From assembly GCF_036077095.1 (NCBI RefSeq), contig NZ_CP107960.1, forward strand, positions 8,246,001 to 8,310,000: DNA of 64,000 nt. The letters are read 5' to 3'. The notes beneath the pieces are model-generated. The model searched no databases and was not told where the DNA came from. It worked only from the letters and a program-made list of their open reading frames with translations. Source of the DNA: Streptomyces sp. NBC_00376. GTDB lineage: Bacteria > Actinomycetota > Actinomycetes > Streptomycetales > Streptomycetaceae. Below are positions 7,019 to 40,692 of this stretch, one piece after another (the first letter of the stretch is position 1; every line of letters begins with the position of its first letter). A program made the translations under genes and the position numbers.

Positions 7019-7534
7019 ATGCACGCGAAAAGGAAGACAGCCGCAGTCATCGGTGCCTTACTCGCCCCCGTACTGGTCCTGAGCCTTCCGGTCGGCTCCG
7101 CCAGTGCCCACGGATACATCTCGTCGCCCCCGAGCCGTCAGGCCCAGTGCGCCGCCGGTACCGTGAGCTGCGGGGACATCAAGTACGAGCCGCAGAGCGT
7201 GGAGGGCCCAAAGGGGCTGACCAGTTGCAGCGGCGGCAACAGCCGGTTCGCCGAACTCGACAACGACTCCAAGGGATGGCAGGTCACCCCGGTCGGCCGG
7301 AGCACGTCCTTCCAGTGGGTCCTGACCGCCCGGCACGCCACTAGCACCTGGCAGTACTTCGCCGGTGGCCGGAAGATCGCTGAGTTCAACGACAACGGCG
7401 CGCAGCCCGGCGCCACCGTCACCCACCAGGTCGACTTCGGCGGCCTGACGGGCAGGCAGAAGGTGCTCGCGGTGTGGAACATCGCCGACACCGCCAACGC
7501 CTTCTACGCCTGTGTCGACGTGAACATCGGCTGA
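7019..7534 (+). CDS. Secreted AA10 lytic polysaccharide monooxygenase
   Basis: A 171-residue exported protein. Residues 1-30 form a signal peptide ending SASA; cleavage would expose His31 (HGYISSPPSRQAQC), the N-terminal half of the copper histidine brace. The second copper histidine is His106 in VLTARHATSTW. Four Cys outside the signal peptide suggest disulphides. Family AA10 enzymes oxidatively cleave chitin or cellulose. There is no extra carbohydrate-binding module. An AAGGAG site lies 5 nt before the ATG. Confidence 0.93.
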   Translation: MHAKRKTAAVIGALLAPVLVLSLPVGSASAHGYISSPPSRQAQCAAGTVSCGDIKYEPQSVEGPKGLTSCSGGNSRFAELDNDSKGWQVTPVGRSTSFQWVLTARHATSTWQYFAGGRKIAEFNDNGAQPGATVTHQVDFGGLTGRQKVLAVWNIADTANAFYACVDVNIG

Positions 7535-9409: not shown

Positions 9410-9789
9410 TACTGGCCTCCAAGCCGGTGTTGGGCGGTATGCGTTCAGCGTGGCGTATGGCACCGACAAGAACGTAGAAATCCGGAAATAGAACGTGCCA
9501 GGTCCGAGGGGTGCGGGGACGGCGTCGATGACGGTGCGTCAGCCGGGGCTCGTCGGCTCGCTCCGTACGGCAGTGGTCAACAGGCACGGCCCACAGGAGA
9601 CCGCCGCGTCGGCGAACACGCCTCGGATGCGACGCGACCGCCGGGTGCGGATTCGTGATCACGGCCCCTCCGGCACGGAGTAAGGCCACCCTCTGCATGT
9701 CCGAAACTGGACGCCGCGAGTCAACGTGTCCGGGTGGGTGTCGATCCTCCGTGGCCTGCTGCCGGTAAGTGCAGGCTAGGCTGCCGCCC
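9410..9789. other. 380-nt intergenic region
   Basis: It lies between the divergent coiled-coil and HAD genes. No convincing small gene was found. A TAGGCT hexamer at 9776-9781 is correctly placed to act as the -10 box of a near-leaderless HAD transcript starting at 9790. Confidence 0.4.
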
Positions 9790-30621: not shown

Positions 30622-30850
30622 CGCCGCCGGGGGACGGCGCGCTCCGCTCCTCCCCGCCGCGTGCAGGTGATCGTCCACCTCCGGCGCCGAAACGTTGATG
30701 CCCTGCTGCGCGGCTGCCGCACGTCCCTGGCCGCAGCCGCGCAGCGGGCGGCGCCGCGGCCGCGACCGGGCGTTGTCAGTGGTCGTAGGTATGTTCGGTC
30801 GTGTCCTGCCGTTGTGGCGAGGAAGTCGCCTTGGTGCACATAGGAGTGGT

Positions 30851-31357
30851 GTGTTGTCAGATTGGGAGAGGTCGAGCACGGCACGGGTGACAACACCCGC
30901 ACGACCGCGCAAGCTGGCCAAAGTCCCGTTCGTCGAGCTGGCCGACGGACGCCTGCAGGGTGTGGTGTCCAGCGGCTCCGACATCGGGCGGGTCTATGTG
31001 TCGTCGGTCGCCGCGGCCACTTACGCGTTCGCCTGCAGCACCAACAACAACCGCCCCTGCGGCGGCGCGCGGGGGTCGTTCTGCAATCACATCAGGGCCC
31101 TGATCAACGAGGCGGTGCTGCAGTACGGTGCCGAGCGCGTCGCCCGCTACCTGAAGGCCGAGCCCGCGGACGGGGAGCCGAGCGCGCAGACCCTGGCCAA
31201 TGACATGAGCGCCGCACGTCCACCGCAGGGGGACACCAAGGCGGCCGCACCCGTCTTCAGCCGGTTCCTGCGCCACCTCGCCTACCTGGAACTCGCCCCG
31301 ACCACGGCACCGTTGCCGGAGATGCAGTGGTTCCCGCCGACCAGGGCGGTGGCGTGA
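30851..31357 (+). CDS. SWIM-like zinc-finger protein of the MoxR-VWA operon
   Basis: A 168-residue protein. Its central region, FACSTNNNRPCGGARGSFCN followed by H, has three Cys and a C-x-H end, as in SWIM zinc fingers, though the first Cys pair is C-x7-C instead of the classical C-x-C. The flanks are RVYVSSVAAATYAFAC before and IRALINEAVLQYG after. SWIM domains bind DNA or protein. In the E. coli yeh group the matching component is YehQ, which is much larger. The GTG at 30851 has an AGGAG site and begins the operon; its stop overlaps the next start (TGATG). Confidence 0.75.
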   Translation: MLSDWERSSTARVTTPARPRKLAKVPFVELADGRLQGVVSSGSDIGRVYVSSVAAATYAFACSTNNNRPCGGARGSFCNHIRALINEAVLQYGAERVARYLKAEPADGEPSAQTLANDMSAARPPQGDTKAAAPVFSRFLRHLAYLELAPTTAPLPEMQWFPPTRAVA

Positions 31358-32745
31358 TGCGTGCCGACCTGTTCGCGGAGGACATCACCGGACTCGACGA
31401 GGCCCTGGAGGCCGTCGACGGCTTCGACCGGGCTCTCGTCGCCGGCCTGCTGCGTCCTCAGCCCACCCAGAGCGCCGGACTGACCGGCCTCGCGCACGCG
31501 GTCGCCGGGACGCCACTGGCCGTAAGGGCCGCCGAGGCGGCCGGGAAGGCGGCGGGCGGAGCCGCGAGCGAGGACCACTTCCTCGCCCTTGCCGCCGCCC
31601 GCACCGCGCTCCTCGGCTCCGTCCACGACGCACTGATGACCCGCATCGAGGAGGCGACCGGCCGGACCCGTGCCGAGGCGACGGTCCCCGCTCCCGCCGG
31701 GCAGCAGGGGGCGAACCTGCTCACCGCCGCCCGCTCCTGGCTGGCCGATCTGGCGCGCTGCGGATGGCAGGGCATCGACCACGAAGTGGTCGCCGGCGCG
31801 GCGCCGGTCGTCTCCGCGATGCTGCCGGATCCCGCGCTGCGCCGCCTGGCGACGCTCCTGGACGGCTTCGCCGCCGAACTCGCGGCGTCCTGCCCTGGCT
31901 TGTCCATGGAACGGATCCCGGCACGCCGCTGGGCCGACCTGTGGTCACGCGCACTGCTGCTGACGGTGCCCGGAGCGGCCGATGTGCCCGTGACCGGTAC
32001 GGCCACCGGCCGTCTCCTGCCCCTCGGTATCGACGTCCATGAACACGCGACCGCCGTACAGGCCCAGGTTCACGCGGTGTTCGAGCCCGCCGACGGCACC
32101 ACGCCCCGTCTGGTACGCGCCGGGGCCGCGGCGCCGAAACCCGACACGGTCGTCGGAGCAGGGCTCTGGCAGCTGCTCCGCCCGCACATGTCGCTGCTGG
32201 CCGCCATCGGCGAAGGCCGCTCGATGGAGCTCACCGACATGCCCGTCACCGCGGAGGGCGACCTGATCTGGAGCGACGAGCACGCACGCCGGGGCGAGCC
32301 CGCCGACGCCTTCGCCACCGCCCGCGTCGCCCTGCCCACGGCCACCGACGCGGCGACAGCACCCCTGGACCGGCACCCGGCGCGCATCGCCGTCCCCGTG
32401 TTCCTGGACGGCTACGCCGCCACCAAGGACGACGACGCGGTCACGTTCACCCTCGCCGCGGGCCCCCTCGCCGTCGACACCGACCGCATTCCGACCGCCG
32501 GACCGCTCACCCCCGAGGCCGTCGCGGCATCCGGCGCGTGCATCGGACTGCTCCGCTGGGACGCCGGGACGTATCGCGTGCAGCCGCTGGCCGTCGAGAC
32601 GACCGTACGGAAGAAGACCGTCACGATCCACGCCGGGGGATGGGCCGGGGGCACGACCGACAAGACCGGTGTCAAGGCCGAGAAGGCCGCCACCGACGCC
32701 GTGGCCGTGCTGCGGGAGCGCGCGGGGAGGCTGCTGCGGAAATGA
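31357..32745 (+). CDS. Unrecognised component of the MoxR-VWA operon
   Basis: A 462-residue, alanine-rich protein I cannot assign. The N-terminal ~200 residues look helical (GFDRALVAGLLRPQP, FAAELAASCPGLSME). From ~residue 205 the composition changes to a beta-rich region (GRLLPLGIDVHEHATAVQAQ, HPARIAVPVFLDGYA). It is locked into the operon: its ATG overlaps the previous stop by one base and its own TGA overlaps the next ATG. It may supply specificity or act as an adaptor for the ATPase-VWA pair; that is inference from position only. GTG 31354 is an alternative start. Confidence 0.8.
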   Translation: MRADLFAEDITGLDEALEAVDGFDRALVAGLLRPQPTQSAGLTGLAHAVAGTPLAVRAAEAAGKAAGGAASEDHFLALAAARTALLGSVHDALMTRIEEATGRTRAEATVPAPAGQQGANLLTAARSWLADLARCGWQGIDHEVVAGAAPVVSAMLPDPALRRLATLLDGFAAELAASCPGLSMERIPARRWADLWSRALLLTVPGAADVPVTGTATGRLLPLGIDVHEHATAVQAQVHAVFEPADGTTPRLVRAGAAAPKPDTVVGAGLWQLLRPHMSLLAAIGEGRSMELTDMPVTAEGDLIWSDEHARRGEPADAFATARVALPTATDAATAPLDRHPARIAVPVFLDGYAATKDDDAVTFTLAAGPLAVDTDRIPTAGPLTPEAVAASGACIGLLRWDAGTYRVQPLAVETTVRKKTVTIHAGGWAGGTTDKTGVKAEKAATDAVAVLRERAGRLLRK

Positions 32746-34226
32746 CGGACCACACGACGGAACGAACCACCGGGACCACGGCCCCGCCGACCCTTCAGCC
32801 CTCTCGGATCCCGGAGGCGGATGCCCAGGACAACCGCCGGCAGGTCCTGTACTGGCGGCTCCTAGCCCGGCTCTTCGACCCCGAGGAGCAGAGCACGCTG
32901 GAATCCGCGAGCCTCGCCGTCGTCGAGGACATCGGCCTGCCCTCCGCACTGCTGGACCCACAGGCTTCCGTCGACTCGATCGTGCAGCGGCATCCGGACC
33001 TGGCAGCCGAGTTCGACGGCCTGATGACGCCCGAGCCCAAGCCGGCTCCGGACCTCGACTCCGAGGGACCCGATGCCCGCGACCGGGCCGCCGAAGTACG
33101 ACGGGCGGCGCTGGTGTCGAAGGTGCTGCTCAATGTCTTCGCCTCCGGCTCGGGCACGGTCACCGCCGGACAACTGGCGCGCTGGCAGTCCGATGCGGGC
33201 TGGCTCGAACGTGCCCTCGGCTGCGTCCCCGGCGAGCTGCGAGGCGGCCGTCCCGGGAAAGGCGCGGCAGGGGCGGGTGCCAGCCCGACCGGCACCGGCG
33301 GTCGGCACGCGTCCCCCGACCTCGGCCGGCTCATTCCGGAGATCGGACCGGAACTGGCCACCATCGAGGCGGACCTCGTCAAACGGATGCACCTGCGCGA
33401 GGTGCTCGCCGATTCCGGGCTCGCCTCGCGGCTCACCCCGAGCATGTCGCTGATCGAGCAGCTGCTGCGGGACAAGAACAACCTCTCGGGCGTGGCCCTG
33501 GCCAACGCCAAGGACCTCATCCGCCGCTTCGTCGACGAGGTCGCCGAAGTACTGCGCACCCAGGTGGAAAAGGCCACGGTGGGTCCCCTGGACCGCTCCG
33601 TCCCGCCCAAGCGGGTGTTCCGCAACCTCGATCTGGACCGGACGATCTGGAAGAACCTCACCAACTGGAGCCCGGAGGAGGAGCGGCTCTACGTCGACCG
33701 CCTCTACTACCGGCACACGGCCCGCAGGACGACACCCCAGCGGCTGATCGTCGTCGTGGACCAGTCGGGCTCGATGGTCGACTCCATGGTGAACTGCACC
33801 ATCCTTGCGTCCATCTTCGCCGGGCTGCCGAAGGTGGACGTCCACCTCATCGCGTACGACACACAGGCGCTCGACCTCACACCATGGGTGCACGACCCCT
33901 TCGAGACCCTGCTGCGCACCAACCTCGGTGGCGGCACCGACGGCACGGTGGCCATGGCACTTGCCCAGCCGAAGATCGCGGAGCCCCGCAACACCGTCGT
34001 GGTGTGGATCTCCGACTTCTACGAATGGCAGACCGAGCCACTGTTCCAGAGCATGGTCGCCATTCACCGTTCGGGAGCCAAGTTCATCCCGGTCGGCTCG
34101 GTCACCAGCTCCGGCCGCGGCAGTGTCAACCCGTGGTTCCGTGACCGCTTCAAAGACCTCGGCACGCCGGTGCTCTCCGGCCACATCCGCAAGCTCGTCG
34201 ACGAGCTCAAGACCTTCCTCGCCTAG
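32742..34226 (+). CDS. von Willebrand A domain protein, MoxR partner
   Basis: A 494-residue protein. The C-terminal ~190 residues are a VWA domain with a full metal-ion site: DQSGSM (~340), the glycine-threonine loop NLGGGTDGTVAMAL and the late aspartate in VVWISDFYEW. The N-terminal ~320 residues are helical with two low-complexity linkers (PKPAPDLDSEGPDARD, AGAGASPTGTGG). VWA proteins encoded next to MoxR ATPases act as adaptors that hand substrates to the ATPase ring. The counterpart in E. coli would be YehP. The start overlaps the previous stop (ATGA) and a GGGGAGG site precedes it. Confidence 0.9.
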   Translation: MTDHTTERTTGTTAPPTLQPSRIPEADAQDNRRQVLYWRLLARLFDPEEQSTLESASLAVVEDIGLPSALLDPQASVDSIVQRHPDLAAEFDGLMTPEPKPAPDLDSEGPDARDRAAEVRRAALVSKVLLNVFASGSGTVTAGQLARWQSDAGWLERALGCVPGELRGGRPGKGAAGAGASPTGTGGRHASPDLGRLIPEIGPELATIEADLVKRMHLREVLADSGLASRLTPSMSLIEQLLRDKNNLSGVALANAKDLIRRFVDEVAEVLRTQVEKATVGPLDRSVPPKRVFRNLDLDRTIWKNLTNWSPEEERLYVDRLYYRHTARRTTPQRLIVVVDQSGSMVDSMVNCTILASIFAGLPKVDVHLIAYDTQALDLTPWVHDPFETLLRTNLGGGTDGTVAMALAQPKIAEPRNTVVVWISDFYEWQTEPLFQSMVAIHRSGAKFIPVGSVTSSGRGSVNPWFRDRFKDLGTPVLSGHIRKLVDELKTFLA

Positions 34227-34238
34227 AAAGGCCCTTTC

Positions 34239-35351
34239 ATGTCCGACCTGTTGCGCGCCCCCGCCGAGATCAAGTACGCCGAGGAACTGGAGTGGCTGGA
34301 GTCCATCGACGACAACCCCAAGCCCTTCTCCTGGCGGCTGTCCCCGAAGATGGTCCGCCTGTTCGTCCTGGGCTCCGAGCGGTCCGACGGCCTGGACCGG
34401 GAGATCTCGCAGAAGTGGTACGGCGACCGCAGTTTCGTCGAGCGTTCCATCGTCACACTCGCCTCCGACCGCGGCCTGCTGCTCATAGGTGACCCCGGCA
34501 CGGGCAAGAGCTGGCTGGCCGAGCTGTTGTCCGCCGCGATCTGCCGCAACTCCACGCTGGTGGTGCAGGGCACGGCCGGCACCACCGAGGACCACATCAA
34601 GTACTCCTGGAACGTGTCGATGGTCATCGCCAAGGGCCAGTCGCGGGAATCGATGATCCCCTCGCCGATCATGACCGCGATGGAATCCGGCGCGATCGGC
34701 CGCTTCGAGGAACTCACGCGTTCCACCAGCGACGTGCAGGACGCGCTGATCTCGATCCTGTCCGAGAAGTACATCTCGGTACCCGAACTCGACAGCGACA
34801 GCATCGTCTTCGCCAAGCCCGGCTTCTCGATCATCGCCACCGCGAACAGCCGCGACCGAGGCGTCAACGACCTTTCCTCGGCGCTCAAGCGACGCTTCAA
34901 CTTCGTCCGCATCCCGGTGGTGACGAACAAGAAGAGCGAGGTGGAGATCGTCCGCTTCCGTACCGAAGAACTGCTGCGCCGCCACCAGATCGAACTGGAA
35001 GTGCCGCCGACCCTGCTCGACGTGCTGCTGCAGAGCTTCGCCGACCTCCGTGCCTCGGCGGCCGCGGCCGGCAGCGACGACGAGAAACTGGAGTCCGCCC
35101 TGTCCACCGCGGAACAGATCGGTGTGCTGGAGGACGCGGTGCTGCACAGCAACTTCTTCGGCGAGCGCGCTCTCACCGCCCGCACGCTGGCCTCCTCGCT
35201 CGTCGGATCGCTGGCCCGGCGCGAGCCCGAGGACCTGGCCATCCTCAACAAGTACCTGCACGGTGTCGTCGAGCCGCGCAGCAAGGAAGAGGGCGGTTCC
35301 TGGCCGGAGTTCCTGGAGGGCGGCCGCGACGCGATCGCCACCCTGTCATGA
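34239..35351 (+). CDS. MoxR-type AAA+ ATPase
   Basis: A 370-residue ATPase. Walker A is LLIGDPGTGKSWLAE (~84). The Walker B position reads IGRFEELTRS, with Glu-Glu in place of Asp-Glu. Sensor 1 and the arginine region are FSIIATANSRDRGVNDL and SALKRRFNFVRIP. A C-terminal helical lid follows (LHSNFFGERALTARTLASSL). It is most like the YehL branch of MoxR proteins. It probably forms a hexameric ring that remodels targets presented by the VWA protein. It sits 12 nt after the VWA gene, and its TGA overlaps the ATG of the DUF5682 gene. Confidence 0.9.
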   Translation: MSDLLRAPAEIKYAEELEWLESIDDNPKPFSWRLSPKMVRLFVLGSERSDGLDREISQKWYGDRSFVERSIVTLASDRGLLLIGDPGTGKSWLAELLSAAICRNSTLVVQGTAGTTEDHIKYSWNVSMVIAKGQSRESMIPSPIMTAMESGAIGRFEELTRSTSDVQDALISILSEKYISVPELDSDSIVFAKPGFSIIATANSRDRGVNDLSSALKRRFNFVRIPVVTNKKSEVEIVRFRTEELLRRHQIELEVPPTLLDVLLQSFADLRASAAAAGSDDEKLESALSTAEQIGVLEDAVLHSNFFGERALTARTLASSLVGSLARREPEDLAILNKYLHGVVEPRSKEEGGSWPEFLEGGRDAIATLS

Positions 35352-38164
35352 CCAGCACCCACGAGGGGACGTTCGAAGGACTGCGGGCTCAGCTGCAGGA
35401 GGCCGCGGCCACGTTCGCCGACGGACCCGACGCGCTGGAGGGCATCCTTCTCGGCATCGTCGACGACGTCGACCACGCGGTCCGTGAGCCGCTCGAGATC
35501 TTCCCCGTCTGCCATCACTCACCCGCCTCGGCGATCGCGATGGCCCGTCGCCTGCGGGAGAAGCGGCCCAAGGTGGTCTACCTCGAACTGTGCGAGGACA
35601 TGGCGCCACTGCTGACGGAGCTGCGCAACTGCAAGCTCCCGGTGGCGGTCCAGTCGTTCGCGACCGAGGTCGACGGCTTCCCGGTCGAGTGGTCCCCGCT
35701 CTCGGTGGTCGCACCGATCACCGAGGCCTCCGCCGAGTACCAGGCGATCGCCTACGCCCTGGACACACCGGGCGTGGAACTGGTCCTCGTCGACCGCTCC
35801 TCGGACCACGTCTTCCAGTGGGACGCACGTGCGACGGAGTCCGCCGAGCCGGCCGCCCCGGACACACCTCCCGCCGAGGAGGAAGCCGCACTGCACGGTG
35901 ACGCGGTCGGCGTGGAGATCGGAGACCTGCGACCGCGCTTCGCCGAACTGGAGGAGCACCTGCTGCACCACGGCAAGGTGCGGCACTGGTCGGAGTGGTG
36001 GCACCAGTACGTCGAGCTGCCGCTCGGCGACAGTGACCACGACACCTACCGCCAGGTCATGCTCCTGATCGGAAGCCTCTTCCGGCGACTGGCACCCGGC
36101 GACTCCCACCGGCTCCGGGTGGACGAGGACCGCGAACGCTACATGTGGACCAGGATGCGCGAACACCTGGCCGCGACCGGCACCGACCCCGCGGACTGCC
36201 TCTACGTGTGCGGCGCCTTCCACGCGGCCAGCCGCGTCGCCGAGTTCGGCGTCCACGGCACGGACACCTTCGAGATCAGCCCGCCCAGTGCCACCACGTG
36301 GCAGCACGGCCTGATTCCGTCCAGCCACGCGGCGATCGAGGCGCAGTTCGGCCTCGCCGCGGGATCGGTGTCGATCGCCGCGACCGTATGGGCGAAGAAC
36401 GTCCGGCGCACCCGCGTAGAGCCCTTCCGCCTGGCCGGACAGGCGGGCGCGAAGAAGTCGAGTGCCAAGGCCAAGAAGGCCGTGGCCGCGGCGGCGGTGG
36501 GGCCCGCGGAGGCGATCCCGCCCTCGGACAAGCTGACCGGATTCCTGCAGCGACCGCCCGCACTGGACCGGCTCGACGAGGCGGAACTGCTCGGCTGGTC
36601 GGTCGAGATCGTGCGCGCCGCGCGCCGCAACGGCTACCTCGCCTCCACCGCCGACGCCATCGCGGTGTTCGAGACGTCGATCCTGCTGGCCGGAATGCGC
36701 GACCGGGCCAAGCCCACCCCGTACGACTTCCAGGACGCGGCCGTCACCTGCATCGAGAAGGACACCGTGCCCGGCCGGCGCGATGTGCGGCGCCTCGTGG
36801 AGATCATGATGGGCGGCGACCGGGTCGGCCGGGTCGGCTACGAGGCGCTGCCGCCCCTGGCCCGCGACGTGCACGACCGGCTCGCGCCCCTGGGCCTGAA
36901 GCTCCAGCAGACCGGTGTGCAACGGGCACTGCTGGACATCGCCTCCCAGCCGGAACTGGAGCGCTGCTCCGACGCGTTGTGGATGCTGCGCCACCTGCTG
37001 CCGCAGGGCGCCGCCCGCCCGATCATGGGCGAACGGAAACTGGGGGAGCGGCCGATCCAGGAATCGTGGGACCTCGCGCTCGGCACCTACCAGCGTGCGC
37101 TCATCGAGCTCGGCTACGAGGGCGTCAGCATCGAGCAGGTACTGGAGCAGCGTCTGCGCCGCACGGCGTACGACCGGCGAGCCACCACCGCGACCGTCCT
37201 GGAAGCCGTCGAGGACGCGACGCTTTACCTGCGCAGCCGCCGCCTCGCCGACGAACTGGGCACACACGCCCTGGAGGTGCTCTCGGCCGAACGAAGCGTC
37301 GACGGCGCACCGGAGGTACTGCGCCGGGTGCGGCGGCTGCTGGCGTACTACCGCACCAGCGAACCGGTGCTGCCGTCCTGGATCGAATCCTTCGCCAAGA
37401 CGGGATACGCCCACTACTGCACCCTGCTGCCGACGGCGTTCACCGACGAAGACGCCACTGTCCGCCAGGTGGCCGCCACACTGGGCTTCCTGTTCAGCAT
37501 GGAGAGCCTGGCGCTGTCGCTGGGCTGCGACCGGACCCAGCTGGAACTGGCCGTGGTCCAGTCGCATCCCGAGGAGCCGTCGAAGACGGCACTGCTGTGG
37601 GCGGCCCGGGTGCAGCTCGGGCACCTCTCCCGCGCGGACCTGCGGGCGAAGTGCGACGAACTGCTGGGCAACCCCTTGGTGGTGCCCGCCTATCCGCGCT
37701 ATCTCAGCGGCTTCGTACAGGCCCTGGAGCCCGTCCCGGGCCTCACGGACTTCGTGGTGGAGGCAGTGTCGAACGCGTTCGCACGGCTGCCGGATCCGGT
37801 GCTTCTACCATGGCTGCCGACCCTGATCACCACTCTGCGATCCAGCGGCTCGGAGCTGGCTCCGCTGCTGATCCGTGAAGCCGGGCGGACCTTCCCCGGA
37901 CGGCTCGCAGCGCTGGACGCATGGGTGCCGCCGTGGCTGGCACAGCCGGAGCCCGAAGCCCTGCGTCCGGGAGTCGGCCCGGAAGGCCCCCACGGCTGCA
38001 CACTGCTTGCCGCGCACCCCGCGACGTGCGACGCGGTGGCGAGTCTGCTGGGCTGCGAAGGCACGTGGGAGACGGCGGAGACCGACCGCCCGGCAGGTGC
38101 GGCGCTGACCGGTCGCCATCCCGAGACGGCCGCCGCGCTGGAAGTGCTGCTGGCCGGAGCGTGA
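35348..38164 (+). CDS. DUF5682 family protein (TraB/EreA-ChaN-like N-terminus)
   Basis: A 938-residue protein, the last and largest of the operon. The N-terminal ~300 residues have the histidine-glutamate pattern of the TraB/ChaN/erythromycin-esterase-like superfamily: FPVCHHSPASAIAMARRLRE (~52), VVYLELCEDMAPLL (~76) and a later CGAFHAASRVAEFG (~287). The remaining ~600 residues are mostly helical and repeat-like and contain a Lys/Ala-rich linker (AKKSSAKAKKAVAAAA) near 375. Family members are predicted metal-dependent hydrolases but are uncharacterised; E. coli YehM is the likely relative. As effector candidate it would be governed by the MoxR-VWA pair. Confidence 0.88.
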   Translation: MTSTHEGTFEGLRAQLQEAAATFADGPDALEGILLGIVDDVDHAVREPLEIFPVCHHSPASAIAMARRLREKRPKVVYLELCEDMAPLLTELRNCKLPVAVQSFATEVDGFPVEWSPLSVVAPITEASAEYQAIAYALDTPGVELVLVDRSSDHVFQWDARATESAEPAAPDTPPAEEEAALHGDAVGVEIGDLRPRFAELEEHLLHHGKVRHWSEWWHQYVELPLGDSDHDTYRQVMLLIGSLFRRLAPGDSHRLRVDEDRERYMWTRMREHLAATGTDPADCLYVCGAFHAASRVAEFGVHGTDTFEISPPSATTWQHGLIPSSHAAIEAQFGLAAGSVSIAATVWAKNVRRTRVEPFRLAGQAGAKKSSAKAKKAVAAAAVGPAEAIPPSDKLTGFLQRPPALDRLDEAELLGWSVEIVRAARRNGYLASTADAIAVFETSILLAGMRDRAKPTPYDFQDAAVTCIEKDTVPGRRDVRRLVEIMMGGDRVGRVGYEALPPLARDVHDRLAPLGLKLQQTGVQRALLDIASQPELERCSDALWMLRHLLPQGAARPIMGERKLGERPIQESWDLALGTYQRALIELGYEGVSIEQVLEQRLRRTAYDRRATTATVLEAVEDATLYLRSRRLADELGTHALEVLSAERSVDGAPEVLRRVRRLLAYYRTSEPVLPSWIESFAKTGYAHYCTLLPTAFTDEDATVRQVAATLGFLFSMESLALSLGCDRTQLELAVVQSHPEEPSKTALLWAARVQLGHLSRADLRAKCDELLGNPLVVPAYPRYLSGFVQALEPVPGLTDFVVEAVSNAFARLPDPVLLPWLPTLITTLRSSGSELAPLLIREAGRTFPGRLAALDAWVPPWLAQPEPEALRPGVGPEGPHGCTLLAAHPATCDAVASLLGCEGTWETAETDRPAGAALTGRHPETAAALEVLLAGA

Positions 38165-38170
38165 CGCATA

Positions 38171-38207
38171 CGGCTGTGCTGCCCGGCCTTGCCGGGCAGC
38201 ACAGCCG
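38171..38207. terminator. Perfect 17-bp hairpin closing the MoxR operon
   Basis: CGGCTGTGCTGCCCGGC (38171-38187) and its exact complement (38191-38207) enclose a CTT loop. It lies 7 nt after the DUF5682 stop codon and 12 nt before the convergent GNAT stop codon, so it can serve both directions. Confidence 0.85.
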
Positions 38208-38218
38208 TGCGGTCGAGC

Positions 38219-39257: not shown

Positions 39258-39779
39258 ATGCACCTCAACCCTTACGGCGAGGATGTCGTGAAGCTGGCCG
39301 CGGATCTGGCCAACCGGCGCCCCGCGAGCGCCGAGGAGCTCGCGGACCGCTGCCGCGCCGCCGGCCTGGTGGTGGAGCTTCCGGTCACGCCGAAGGATCT
39401 CGACCGCACCCATGAAGTGCTGGACGCCTGGGAGAAGGTCGTCGATGCCGAAGAGGAGCACGAGCGCGCCGAGTTGCTCAACCGGATGCTGGCGGCGGCC
39501 GCCGCCTACCCGAGGCTGACCGACCACGCCGAGGACGGCTGGCACCTGCACTACCGGGACGACCGGCAGATGCTCGGCCCGTTGCTGTTCTCACTGCTCT
39601 CCGTCGGCACCGCGCTGCACCTGGCGGGGCGGGGCATGCGGCGGCTGCGGCGGTGCGCCGTCACCGAGTGCGCCGTGGTCTTCGCCGACACCTCCCGCAC
39701 CGGGCGGCAGCGCTACTGCTCGCGGCGGTGTGCCAACCGCGACGCGGTACGCCGGCACCGCGCGCGGACCGCACCCTGA
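39258..39779 (+). CDS. CGNR-type zinc-finger regulator
   Basis: A 173-residue protein of the ABATE/CGNR family. The N-terminal ~125 residues form the putative stress-sensing domain (LAADLANRRPASAEELAD). The C-terminus is a zinc finger, CAVTECAVVFADTSRTGRQR followed by YCSRRCANRDAVRRHR, with four Cys; the signature tetrad reads CANR instead of CGNR. Such proteins are predicted transcription regulators. There is no ribosome site before ATG 39258, and only 26 nt separate it from the divergent GNAT gene, so the promoters must overlap. Confidence 0.82.
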   Translation: MHLNPYGEDVVKLAADLANRRPASAEELADRCRAAGLVVELPVTPKDLDRTHEVLDAWEKVVDAEEEHERAELLNRMLAAAAAYPRLTDHAEDGWHLHYRDDRQMLGPLLFSLLSVGTALHLAGRGMRRLRRCAVTECAVVFADTSRTGRQRYCSRRCANRDAVRRHRARTAP

Positions 39780-39882
39780 CCCGAAGGACGGCCCCTGGTC
39801 GCCACCGACCCCGACGCAGGCTGGTCAACCCGCGCCGAAAAGCAGTGGTCCAAGCCGATCGGCGCCTGGACACTGACTGCTC

Positions 39883-40692
39883 ATGCCTATCAAACCTCCC
39901 TCCGGCCCGATGTGTACCCGTGATTCGCTCGCCTCCGACTTCCGCGCAATGGGCCTGCGCGCCGGTGAGGTCCTCCTCGTGCATTCCTCGCTCAGCTCGC
40001 TCGGCTGGGTCTGCGGCGGTCCCGGCACCGTCGTCATGGCGCTGCTCGACGCTCTCGGCGACAGCGGGACCCTGGTGGTGCCAACCCACTCCGGCGACAA
40101 TTCGGATCCGGCGTACTGGCAGAACCCGCCCGTGCCCGAGGCTTGGTGGGCGGACATCCGCGCCTCGATGCCGGCCTTCGACGCCCGGACCACTCCCACC
40201 CTCGGCGTCGGCATCATCCCGGAGACCGTGCGCAGCTGGCCGGGCGCCCTCCGCAGTTGTCATCCGCAGACCTCCTTCGCGGCCGTGGGCCCACGCGCAC
40301 CAGCGATCGTGGATGCCCACGCGCTCGACTGCCGGCTCGGCGAGCACAGCCCCCTCGCCCGGCTGGAAGAAGCCGGGGCGCGGGTTCTTCTCCTGGGTGC
40401 GGGCTTCGATTCCTGCACGGCGTTCCACCTCGCCGAGTACCGCGTCCCTTCGCCGCGGGTGGACAACTCCTTCGCCGTCATGACTCCGCAGGGTCGTGCA
40501 TGGGCAACGGTGCGTGACACCTCGTTCACTTCGGACCGCTTCGATGAACTGGGTGCGGCCTTCGAGAAGGAACGCCCGGTGGTAAGGGGCACGGTGGGCG
40601 GTGCGGAGGCCCGGTTGTTCGGCCTGGCCGAGGCCGTCGCGTACGCCGAGGGCTGGCTGCCCGAGCACCGTCCGCGCCCGTCCGCGGAGTGA
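39883..40692 (+). CDS. Aminoglycoside 3-N-acetyltransferase-like (AAC(3) family)
   Basis: A 269-residue member of the AAC(3)/antibiotic NAT family. Signatures are LLVHSSLSSLGWVCGGPGTV, LVVPTHSGDNSDPAYWQNPP and the active-site region HPQTSFAAVGPRAPAIV. Related enzymes acetylate the 3-amino group of 2-deoxystreptamine antibiotics; some Streptomyces members act on other amines, so resistance is likely but not certain. ATG 39883 is used; ATG 39910 is possible. No aminoglycoside biosynthetic core is visible in the window. Confidence 0.88.
   Translation: MPIKPPSGPMCTRDSLASDFRAMGLRAGEVLLVHSSLSSLGWVCGGPGTVVMALLDALGDSGTLVVPTHSGDNSDPAYWQNPPVPEAWWADIRASMPAFDARTTPTLGVGIIPETVRSWPGALRSCHPQTSFAAVGPRAPAIVDAHALDCRLGEHSPLARLEEAGARVLLLGAGFDSCTAFHLAEYRVPSPRVDNSFAVMTPQGRAWATVRDTSFTSDRFDELGAAFEKERPVVRGTVGGAEARLFGLAEAVAYAEGWLPEHRPRPSAE

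Follow-up and report, generated by a model that had tools for sequence, protein, structure and literature searches.

This analysis revealed that a five-gene operon of Streptomyces sp. NBC_00376, gp1 to gp5, is preceded by a promoter of the RecA-independent (RecA-NDp) or PafBC type, which recurs before recA, uvrB and ruvC in the same genome. Judged by this promoter, the operon very probably belongs to the DNA-damage regulon, and we give a probability of about 60% to the reading that it encodes a DNA-damage-inducible MoxR-VWA protein-remodelling machine with exchangeable adaptors. The operon lies in the window, by which we mean the whole 64,000-nucleotide stretch analysed (C1:8246001-8310000, on the 8.94-Mb contig C1 of a 10.04-Mb genome). 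The five plus-strand open reading frames (ORFs), gp1 to gp5, were confirmed at the positions and with the overlaps given for them in an earlier note on this DNA, the junctions being, in order, TGATG, ATGA, a 12-nt gap and ATGA. The features are the following.

30773..30795, plus strand: RecA-NDp / PafBC-type promoter, TTGTCAGTG-N8-TATGTT, 78 nt before the gp1 start codon
30851..31357, plus strand: gp1, 168 aa, predicted small CCCH zinc-binding protein
31034..31090, plus strand: gp1 motif C-x7-C-x7-C-x-H, residues 62-80
31357..32745, plus strand: gp2, 462 aa, no known family, N-terminal half helical and C-terminal half beta-rich
31981..32631, plus strand: about residues 209-425 of gp2, tentative tandem oligonucleotide/oligosaccharide-binding (OB) folds, position transferred approximately from the natural fusion L039 (its residues 389-605)
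32742..34226, plus strand: gp3, 494 aa, CoxE-like VWA protein, YehP relative
33759..33776, plus strand: gp3 metal ion-dependent adhesion site (MIDAS) motif DQSGSM, residues 340-345
34239..35351, plus strand: gp4, 370 aa, MoxR AAA+ ATPase, YehL relative
34488..34514, plus strand: gp4 Walker A motif GDPGTGKSW, residues 84-92, invariant in 105/105
35348..38164, plus strand: gp5, 938 aa, divergent DUF5682 protein, YehM relative, with C-terminal helical repeats
35510..35518, plus strand: gp5 Cys55-His56-His57, invariant in 104/104
38170..38208, no strand: inverted repeat with a perfect 18-bp stem (arms 38170-38187 / 38191-38208) and a 3-nt loop

The promoter had not been mentioned in the earlier note. 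Across both strands of the window, TTGTCRGTG-N8-TANNNT, which we take to be the RecA-NDp form, has a single match, TTGTCAGTGGTCGTAGGTATGTT at 30773-30795. This match also fits exactly, and in the right direction, the PafBC consensus given in the accessible text of PMC8151990, TGTCGG or TGTCAG-10N-TA-3N-T. For comparison, gp5 was searched for in one genome per species across 84,980 species, which yielded 342 related stretches; the best 80 of these 342, 20 further loci and four plasmid-labelled records make up a set of 104 gp5 loci. Two loci that reach contig ends (L060 and L066) were left out of the five-gene and upstream counts, and the removal of L127, which duplicates L056 (one record), leaves 102 distinct upstream regions, window included.

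The exact form was found within 400 nt in 74 of the 103 upstream regions (the window and 102 loci; 73 of the 102 distinct ones), and the loci hold 75 exact matches in total in 4.64 million strand-bases. The published consensus lies no more than 150 nt upstream in 92 of 103 regions (91 of 102 distinct) and in 87 of the 89 regions of clade A; all these promoter counts, and those for other operons below, come from loci picked for gp5 (or for a SWIM or DUF4132 protein), and the relatives are not independent of one another. As controls, the consensus occurred in 8 of 20600 Markov-simulated regions, in 1 of 103 regions on the opposite strand and in 16 of 5100 random 400-nt stretches, the last figure being an over-count, as some stretches may overlap the operon's own motif. 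The motif columns are near-invariant and most flanking columns vary, a pattern that is partly built in by aligning the matches on the motif. Sequence (TGTCRG-N10-TANNNT), position, direction and conservation thus all agree with a RecA-NDp / PafBC promoter. LexA control of the operon was not supported, LexA-like boxes being present in 0 of the 103 upstream regions.

The motif has 32 exact sites in the genome, and the reversed pattern has none. Thirty of the 32 sites were fetched and read, among them those of three DUF5682-type operons (L139, L149 and L167). Downstream proteins were scanned with Pfam at 20 sites and with NCBIfam at four more plus three repeats; L143, L151 and L157 lie outside these scans. 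Pfam identified RecA, UvrB, XseA, Ogt, a DnaN-family protein, a RecD2-like helicase, ThyX and a macrodomain protein, and NCBIfam added RuvC, Ung and a DinG/YoaA-like helicase. Several of the 24 scanned non-operon proteins have no clear repair role or no match (a methyltransferase, an amine oxidase, an ABC permease, an acetyltransferase, DUF4253, PhoH and others). The PhoH-like (L158), DnaN-family (L152) and macrodomain (L138) proteins were unexpected beside RecA-NDp sites. A PafA gene and two tandem WYL genes are located at C1:6.98 Mb; the latter are presumably pafBC, by their WYL matches and position, NCBIfam naming neither. The window operon shares motif, spacing and direction with the PafBC / RecA-NDp regulon as described in the accessible literature, with RecA, UvrB and RuvC as co-members here, although no MoxR-VWA-DUF5682 operon is named as a member in that part of the literature.

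Between 11 and 44 exact sites were counted in each of 26/26 Streptomyces genomes, with 0 or 1 in the controls, and a PafBC-type regulon therefore seems to be general in Streptomyces. The accessible text of a LexA study (PMC9380542) states, from an initial search, that the M. smegmatis PafBC motif is not conserved in S. venezuelae; the motif counts in the tested Streptomyces genomes point in the opposite direction, to a well-populated RecA-NDp regulon in the genus. In S. coelicolor, SCO6735 is described in the available part of PMC5087735 as having a RecA-NDp promoter and a 5-fold rise after UV.

Sites of this form also precede both other DUF5682-MoxR-VWA operons of the genome. In the first (L005, C1:1.30 Mb), the site stands before the WGR-DUF4132 gene of a WGR-DUF4132/MoxR/DUF5682/VWA operon, which shares the core and the upstream motif with the window operon, whereas a single 1197-aa WGR-DUF4132 protein replaces gp1-gp2 and the type is rare (4/41 Streptomyces genomes). 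In the second (L006, C1:3.49 Mb), it stands before the SWIM gene of a SWIM-DUF5691 transcript that diverges from MoxR-DUF5682-VWA. The core is shared here as well, gp4 being 44% identical to the L006 MoxR, but the system differs in its two divergent transcripts, its other adaptors and its near-universal distribution (37/41 Streptomyces genomes, against a patchy 9/28 for the window operon). Of the SWIM-type loci fetched from Streptomyces, 28 of 30 carry the exact motif (30 of 30 a relaxed form), as do 4 of 4 loci of the WGR-DUF4132 type, own locus counted in both. Because the core recurs twice in the genome with other adaptors and a like promoter, the adaptor probably sets the target of the DUF5682-MoxR-VWA machines. 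One damage promoter type on three adaptor versions in this one genome also provides a simple handle on the function of systems of the E. coli yeh type. By eye, the divergent MoxR-DUF5682-VWA transcript of L006 has a site too, TTGTCAGTG-N8-CACGGT, just above position 9694 on the minus strand, a few tens of nt before the start and with a -10 element one base off consensus.

In the mechanism that we propose, DNA damage would activate PafBC, and the operon would be switched on from the 30773-30795 promoter together with recA, uvrB, ruvC, ung and others; the promoter is recognised by sequence and conservation, and from it we infer induction by damage. By family membership, gp4 would form a MoxR AAA+ ring, and gp3 would couple this ring through its VWA domain to the client, as in RavA-ViaA. 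The gp1-gp2 adaptor, with its CCCH zinc finger, helical domain and two tentative OB folds, would recognise the target, which may be DNA, either damaged or single-stranded, or a nucleoprotein complex that has stalled; the two proteins are observed as a fusion, and their binding to nucleic acid is presumed. With its invariant His/Glu cluster and helical-repeat scaffold, gp5 may hold or hydrolyse the client, and ATP hydrolysis would finally dismantle or remodel the complex. This anatomy (AAA+ ring, VWA, two-gene adaptor, large His/Glu protein, helical scaffold) fits a remodelling machine.

With regard to distribution, all five genes occur as open frames in one order and on one strand in 102 of the 104 gp5 loci, the remaining two being broken by contig ends, so that the conserved neighbourhood expected in the earlier note was indeed found. 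In an even draw of genomes from the class, gp5 (E<=1e-10) was present in 21 of 296 and gp2 (E<=1e-5) in 22; all 21 genomes with gp5 are among the 22 with gp2, the remaining genome being a draft of 87% completeness. A lack of co-occurrence across actinobacteria, which would have spoken against the proposal of the earlier note, is thereby ruled out for the sampled genomes. In a draw from the phylum, gp5 was present in 5 of 246 genomes. The operon is an accessory module in Streptomyces, since only 9 of 28 same-genus genomes in the class draw carry gp5.

The closest named relatives of gp5 are from Streptomyces. In a tree of gp3-gp5, read without an independent species tree, some copies from Pseudonocardiales and Streptosporangiales nest within the Streptomyces copies with support of 0.93-1.0, which suggests that the operon may have moved horizontally as a unit. 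Five plasmid-labelled records, of 0.93 to 11.9 Mb, carry gp5, and the largest of them may be chromosomes. The copy on a Streptomyces cadmiisoli plasmid (L137:15001-17634), in which gp5 is unannotated in PLSDB, has a match that stops at residue 883 and may be broken. Of the flanking gene families, none is present in more than 8 of the 104 regions compared (the window and 103 loci, with crude gene calling). The most conserved part is gp4, with a mean identity to the window protein of 95.3% among the 91 clade-A copies and 86.2% among the 13 of clade B.

The role in biological conflict put forward in the earlier note was not supported. According to such a reading, gp1-gp2 would sense an invader, MoxR-VWA would act as a threshold switch and gp5 would be a toxic effector, damage induction serving as a phage-stress trigger. 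MoxR-vWA ternary conflict systems do exist in Streptomyces and share the MoxR and VWA pairing, as stated in the accessible text of Kaur et al. 2020 (PMC7159879). The patchiness of the operon, the copies nested between orders, which suggest horizontal transfer, the plasmid-labelled copies and a weak PADLOC match of gp4 to mad8 (E 2e-6, 25.6 bits) are compatible with a module of this kind. However, a scan of the five proteins gave no VMAP, iSTAND or beta-propeller third component and no variable or exchanged effector, and the bpMoxR score was 12.6, below the cut-off of 27. In that accessible text, the published conflict systems are characterized by displaced effectors and by variable segments, whereas here a single five-gene order is kept and the invariant columns amount to 296/938 in gp5 and 220/370 in gp4 (105 sequences for gp4). 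PADLOC had no match for gp1, gp2, gp5 or six neighbouring window ORFs; the other weak matches of gp4 were above E 0.01, and gp3 matched TerY at E 0.0013. No match to the operon was found in the phage collection, there are no recurrent neighbours, and the paralogous SWIM-DUF5691 system is near-universal in Streptomyces. The promoter, moreover, groups the operon with recA, uvrB, ruvC, ung and ogt. We consider an anti-phage module distinctly unlikely.

Two related candidates were rejected: a location in a defence island, by the lack of recurrent neighbours and of PADLOC matches among the six neighbouring ORFs scanned, with crude gene calling, and carriage by phages, by the lack of a match in the phage collection. 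Given that the effector exchange and rapid change predicted for conflict systems were not seen, and that the promoter is common to the operon and DNA-repair genes, the sequence data suggest that the operon works in the DNA-damage response and not in phage defence. Its main job is likely to be damage tolerance or repair.

The nearest known counterpart of the core is the yehF-yehI-yehL-yehM-yehP-yehQ region of E. coli, which encodes PF05406/WGR, DUF4132, MoxR AAA+, DUF5682, VWA and SWIM proteins. The kinship with yehLMP recognized in the earlier note holds: hhalign related gp4 to YehL (E 1.2e-50), gp3 to YehP (E 1.6e-31) and gp5 to YehM alone (probability 91%). The gene order differs, however, and the window operon has no DUF4132 gene.

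The two proteins of the core correspond to what had been read from the sequence. gp3 matches PF05762 (CoxE-type VWA) at E 5.1e-28, and its DQSGSM motif and D425 are invariant in 104/104 aligned sequences, so that the DQSGSM site described as intact is kept in all of them; the MIDAS threonine at residue 399 is variable, being Asn in 30/104 (20 of clade A and 10 of clade B). This Asn is a recurrent metal-site variation. gp4 matches AAA_5 (PF07728) at E 3.3e-37 and belongs to the YehL subfamily of MoxR proteins; its Walker A/B, sensor and arginine motifs are intact, at positions kept in 102-105 of 105 sequences. Sub-threshold matches of gp4 to GvpN (7.8e-11), MadB (1.5e-8) and mad8 (2e-6) and of gp3 to TerY (0.0013) were read as generic or due to chance. 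Family membership supports VWA-MoxR as the remodelling core. No sequence relatives were found in the PDB with the gp5 and gp1-gp2 profiles (E<=1), gp4 (E<=0.001) or gp3 (E<=0.01).

The putative adaptor is less easily classified. The zinc ligands of gp1 (C62, C70, C78 and H80) are invariant in 103/103 sequences. Canonical SWIM domains have the pattern CxC...CxH, whereas the spacing in the window protein is C-x7-C-x7-C-x-H, some relatives having x8 in front of the last C, and gp1 had no Pfam match at E<=1, SWIM (PF04434) included. The 'SWIM-like zinc finger' of the earlier note is therefore borne out in its CCCH ligands and not in its spacing, and gp1 resembles SWIM only in its set of ligands and its predicted topology. 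Comparison of gp1 with 120 SWIM proteins and YehQ by hhalign gave less than 1%, which carries little weight because the control SWIM set missed YehQ, itself a SWIM protein (0.4%). NCBIfam also matched gp1 to an SSB model at E 0.0048, well short of the cut-off, and this was likewise read as generic or chance.

As had been noted, gp2 has no known family: Pfam, NCBIfam and PADLOC all gave no match. With respect to DUF5691, there was no Pfam match at E<=1, and hhalign to the single DUF5691 protein of L006 gave less than 1%, in a comparison with no positive control. In these low-power comparisons, no similarity of gp1 or gp2 to YehQ, DUF5691 or the Streptomyces SWIM proteins could be detected. The possibility that gp1-gp2 is a split YehQ or a SWIM-DUF5691 pair was not supported, for lack of similarity, though hhalign lacked power.

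At 25 of 102 loci the two genes are joined in a single open frame, which is evidence that gp1 and gp2 act as one subunit and agrees with their proposed joint work in target recognition. The AlphaFold model of the natural fusion L039 had a predicted local distance difference test score (pLDDT) of 80.2 and a predicted template modelling score (pTM) of 0.70. Its gp2 part aligns weakly with OB-fold proteins, many of which bind single-stranded DNA; in the structure-alignment lists (VIA-align), a missing family was not counted as evidence. We tentatively propose from this model that gp2 holds tandem OB folds. Binding of DNA by gp1-gp2 is possible, though somewhat doubtful.

The same evidence bears on the strongest rival of the remodelling machine, a maturation chaperone of the CoxDE / NorQD / RavA-ViaA type, in which MoxR-VWA would insert a metal into, or mature, one enzyme needed after DNA damage. 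gp1, gp2 and gp5 would then recognise this client (for example an Fe-S helicase or a nucleotide-reducing enzyme) and not DNA. Characterised MoxR proteins have been proposed to mature specific complexes (PMC3893208, accessible text), gp3 is of the CoxE type, and a damage promoter fits such a chaperone equally well. On the other hand, the neighbourhood contains no conserved enzyme that could serve as the client, and the resemblance of the gp2 model to OB-fold proteins, many of them nucleic-acid-binding, argues weakly for a nucleic-acid target. We regard this chaperone as rather unlikely.

With regard to gp5, its DUF5682 label was retained despite the silence of Pfam. No Pfam model matched gp5 at E<=1, the DUF5682 model PF18934 included, and a search of the genome with PF18934 at E<=10 found two paralogues only. 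Profile-profile comparison with a three-member DUF5682 set, by contrast, gave an hhalign probability of 99.2% (E 5.6e-20, 460 columns), and the HHxP / E / G-x-H motifs of the superfamily are shared, which indicates remote homology. Some close gp5 relatives also carry a precomputed PF18934.6 assignment. By these comparisons, gp5 is a divergent DUF5682 protein. Residues C55, H56, H57, E80, E83, C288 and H292 are invariant in 104/104 sequences. The structural model has a mean pLDDT of 52 and is confident only at about residues 600-820; the first 350 residues have values of 23-58 (blocks of ten), so that the TraB/ChaN label of the earlier note is one of motifs only. No TraB/ChaN Pfam match at E<=1 was obtained for gp5, the L005 DUF5682 protein or YehM, and the helical C-terminus matches generic helical repeats only.

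The invariant His/Glu cluster and the damage promoter would also suit a system for damage-triggered growth arrest or cell death, in which gp5 would be a hydrolase set free once the damage is beyond repair. However, none of the five proteins was recognised as an antitoxin-like partner, conservation is strong without effector exchange, and the paralogous SWIM-DUF5691 system is near-universal in Streptomyces; such a role is very improbable.

Systems of the yehL/yehM/yehP type were found in Actinomycetota, Pseudomonadota, Deinococcota and Bacteroidota. In Deinococcus taeanensis, plasmid p_TS293_3 carries a SWIM-DUF5691-AAA-small ORF-DUF5682-VWA operon. The only site resembling the radiation/desiccation response motif (RDRM, the DdrO operator) in a 24-kb region lies 19 nt before this operon (L214:7723-7739), with two mismatches to the published 15-mer. 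According to the accessible text of PMC8533742, mitomycin C raises the D. radiodurans proteins DRA0166 (DUF4132) and DR2173 (WGR) in the wild type, an irrE mutant shows no such rise, and both are targets of DdrO. For M. smegmatis, the accessible text of PMC5656591 lists MoxR1 (-1.6), MoxR2 (-1.7) and a von Willebrand factor protein (-1.6) as changed in a pafBC deletion. The DUF4132/WGR genes of PMC8533742 and MoxR1/MoxR2 of PMC5656591 are the nearest published links in the accessible sources. No link of MoxR-VWA-DUF5682 systems to DNA damage was found in the open literature, subscription papers and supplements lying outside the search; in the open literature searched, no assigned function for yehL/yehM/yehP-type systems was found and DUF5682 and DUF5691 were unmentioned.

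Several observations weigh against the damage-response reading or against its generality. The divergent actinobacterial copies of clade B mostly have no PafBC consensus (4/13 have it), and one Nocardia locus lacks the motif. A LexA box of the form GTTC-N7-GTTC is absent at L217-L221, five alphaproteobacterial loci, and at L216 one of three LexA boxes, at 7175-7189, lies about 700 nt before the ATPase gene. Near E. coli yehF, a LexA-like site with both half-sites fits at 13/20 positions, which is weak.

A fourth layout was observed on Streptomyces plasmids (L223:1-12576 and L224:1-12588), with the order DUF4132 / ~1640-aa 'DNA-binding protein' / AAA / ~1255-aa DUF5682 / hypothetical. In the window, the operon is closed by the hairpin at 38170-38208, a probable terminator shared with a convergent GNAT gene (fold z = -6.9); the perfect stem reported earlier is present, and its length is 18 bp, one pair above the 17 given. 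Downstream of the operon, past two GNAT genes, the region 39258-40692 contains a zinc-finger gene of the ABATE/CGNR type and a gene of the aminoglycoside 3-N-acetyltransferase family (PF02522, E 4.2e-90).

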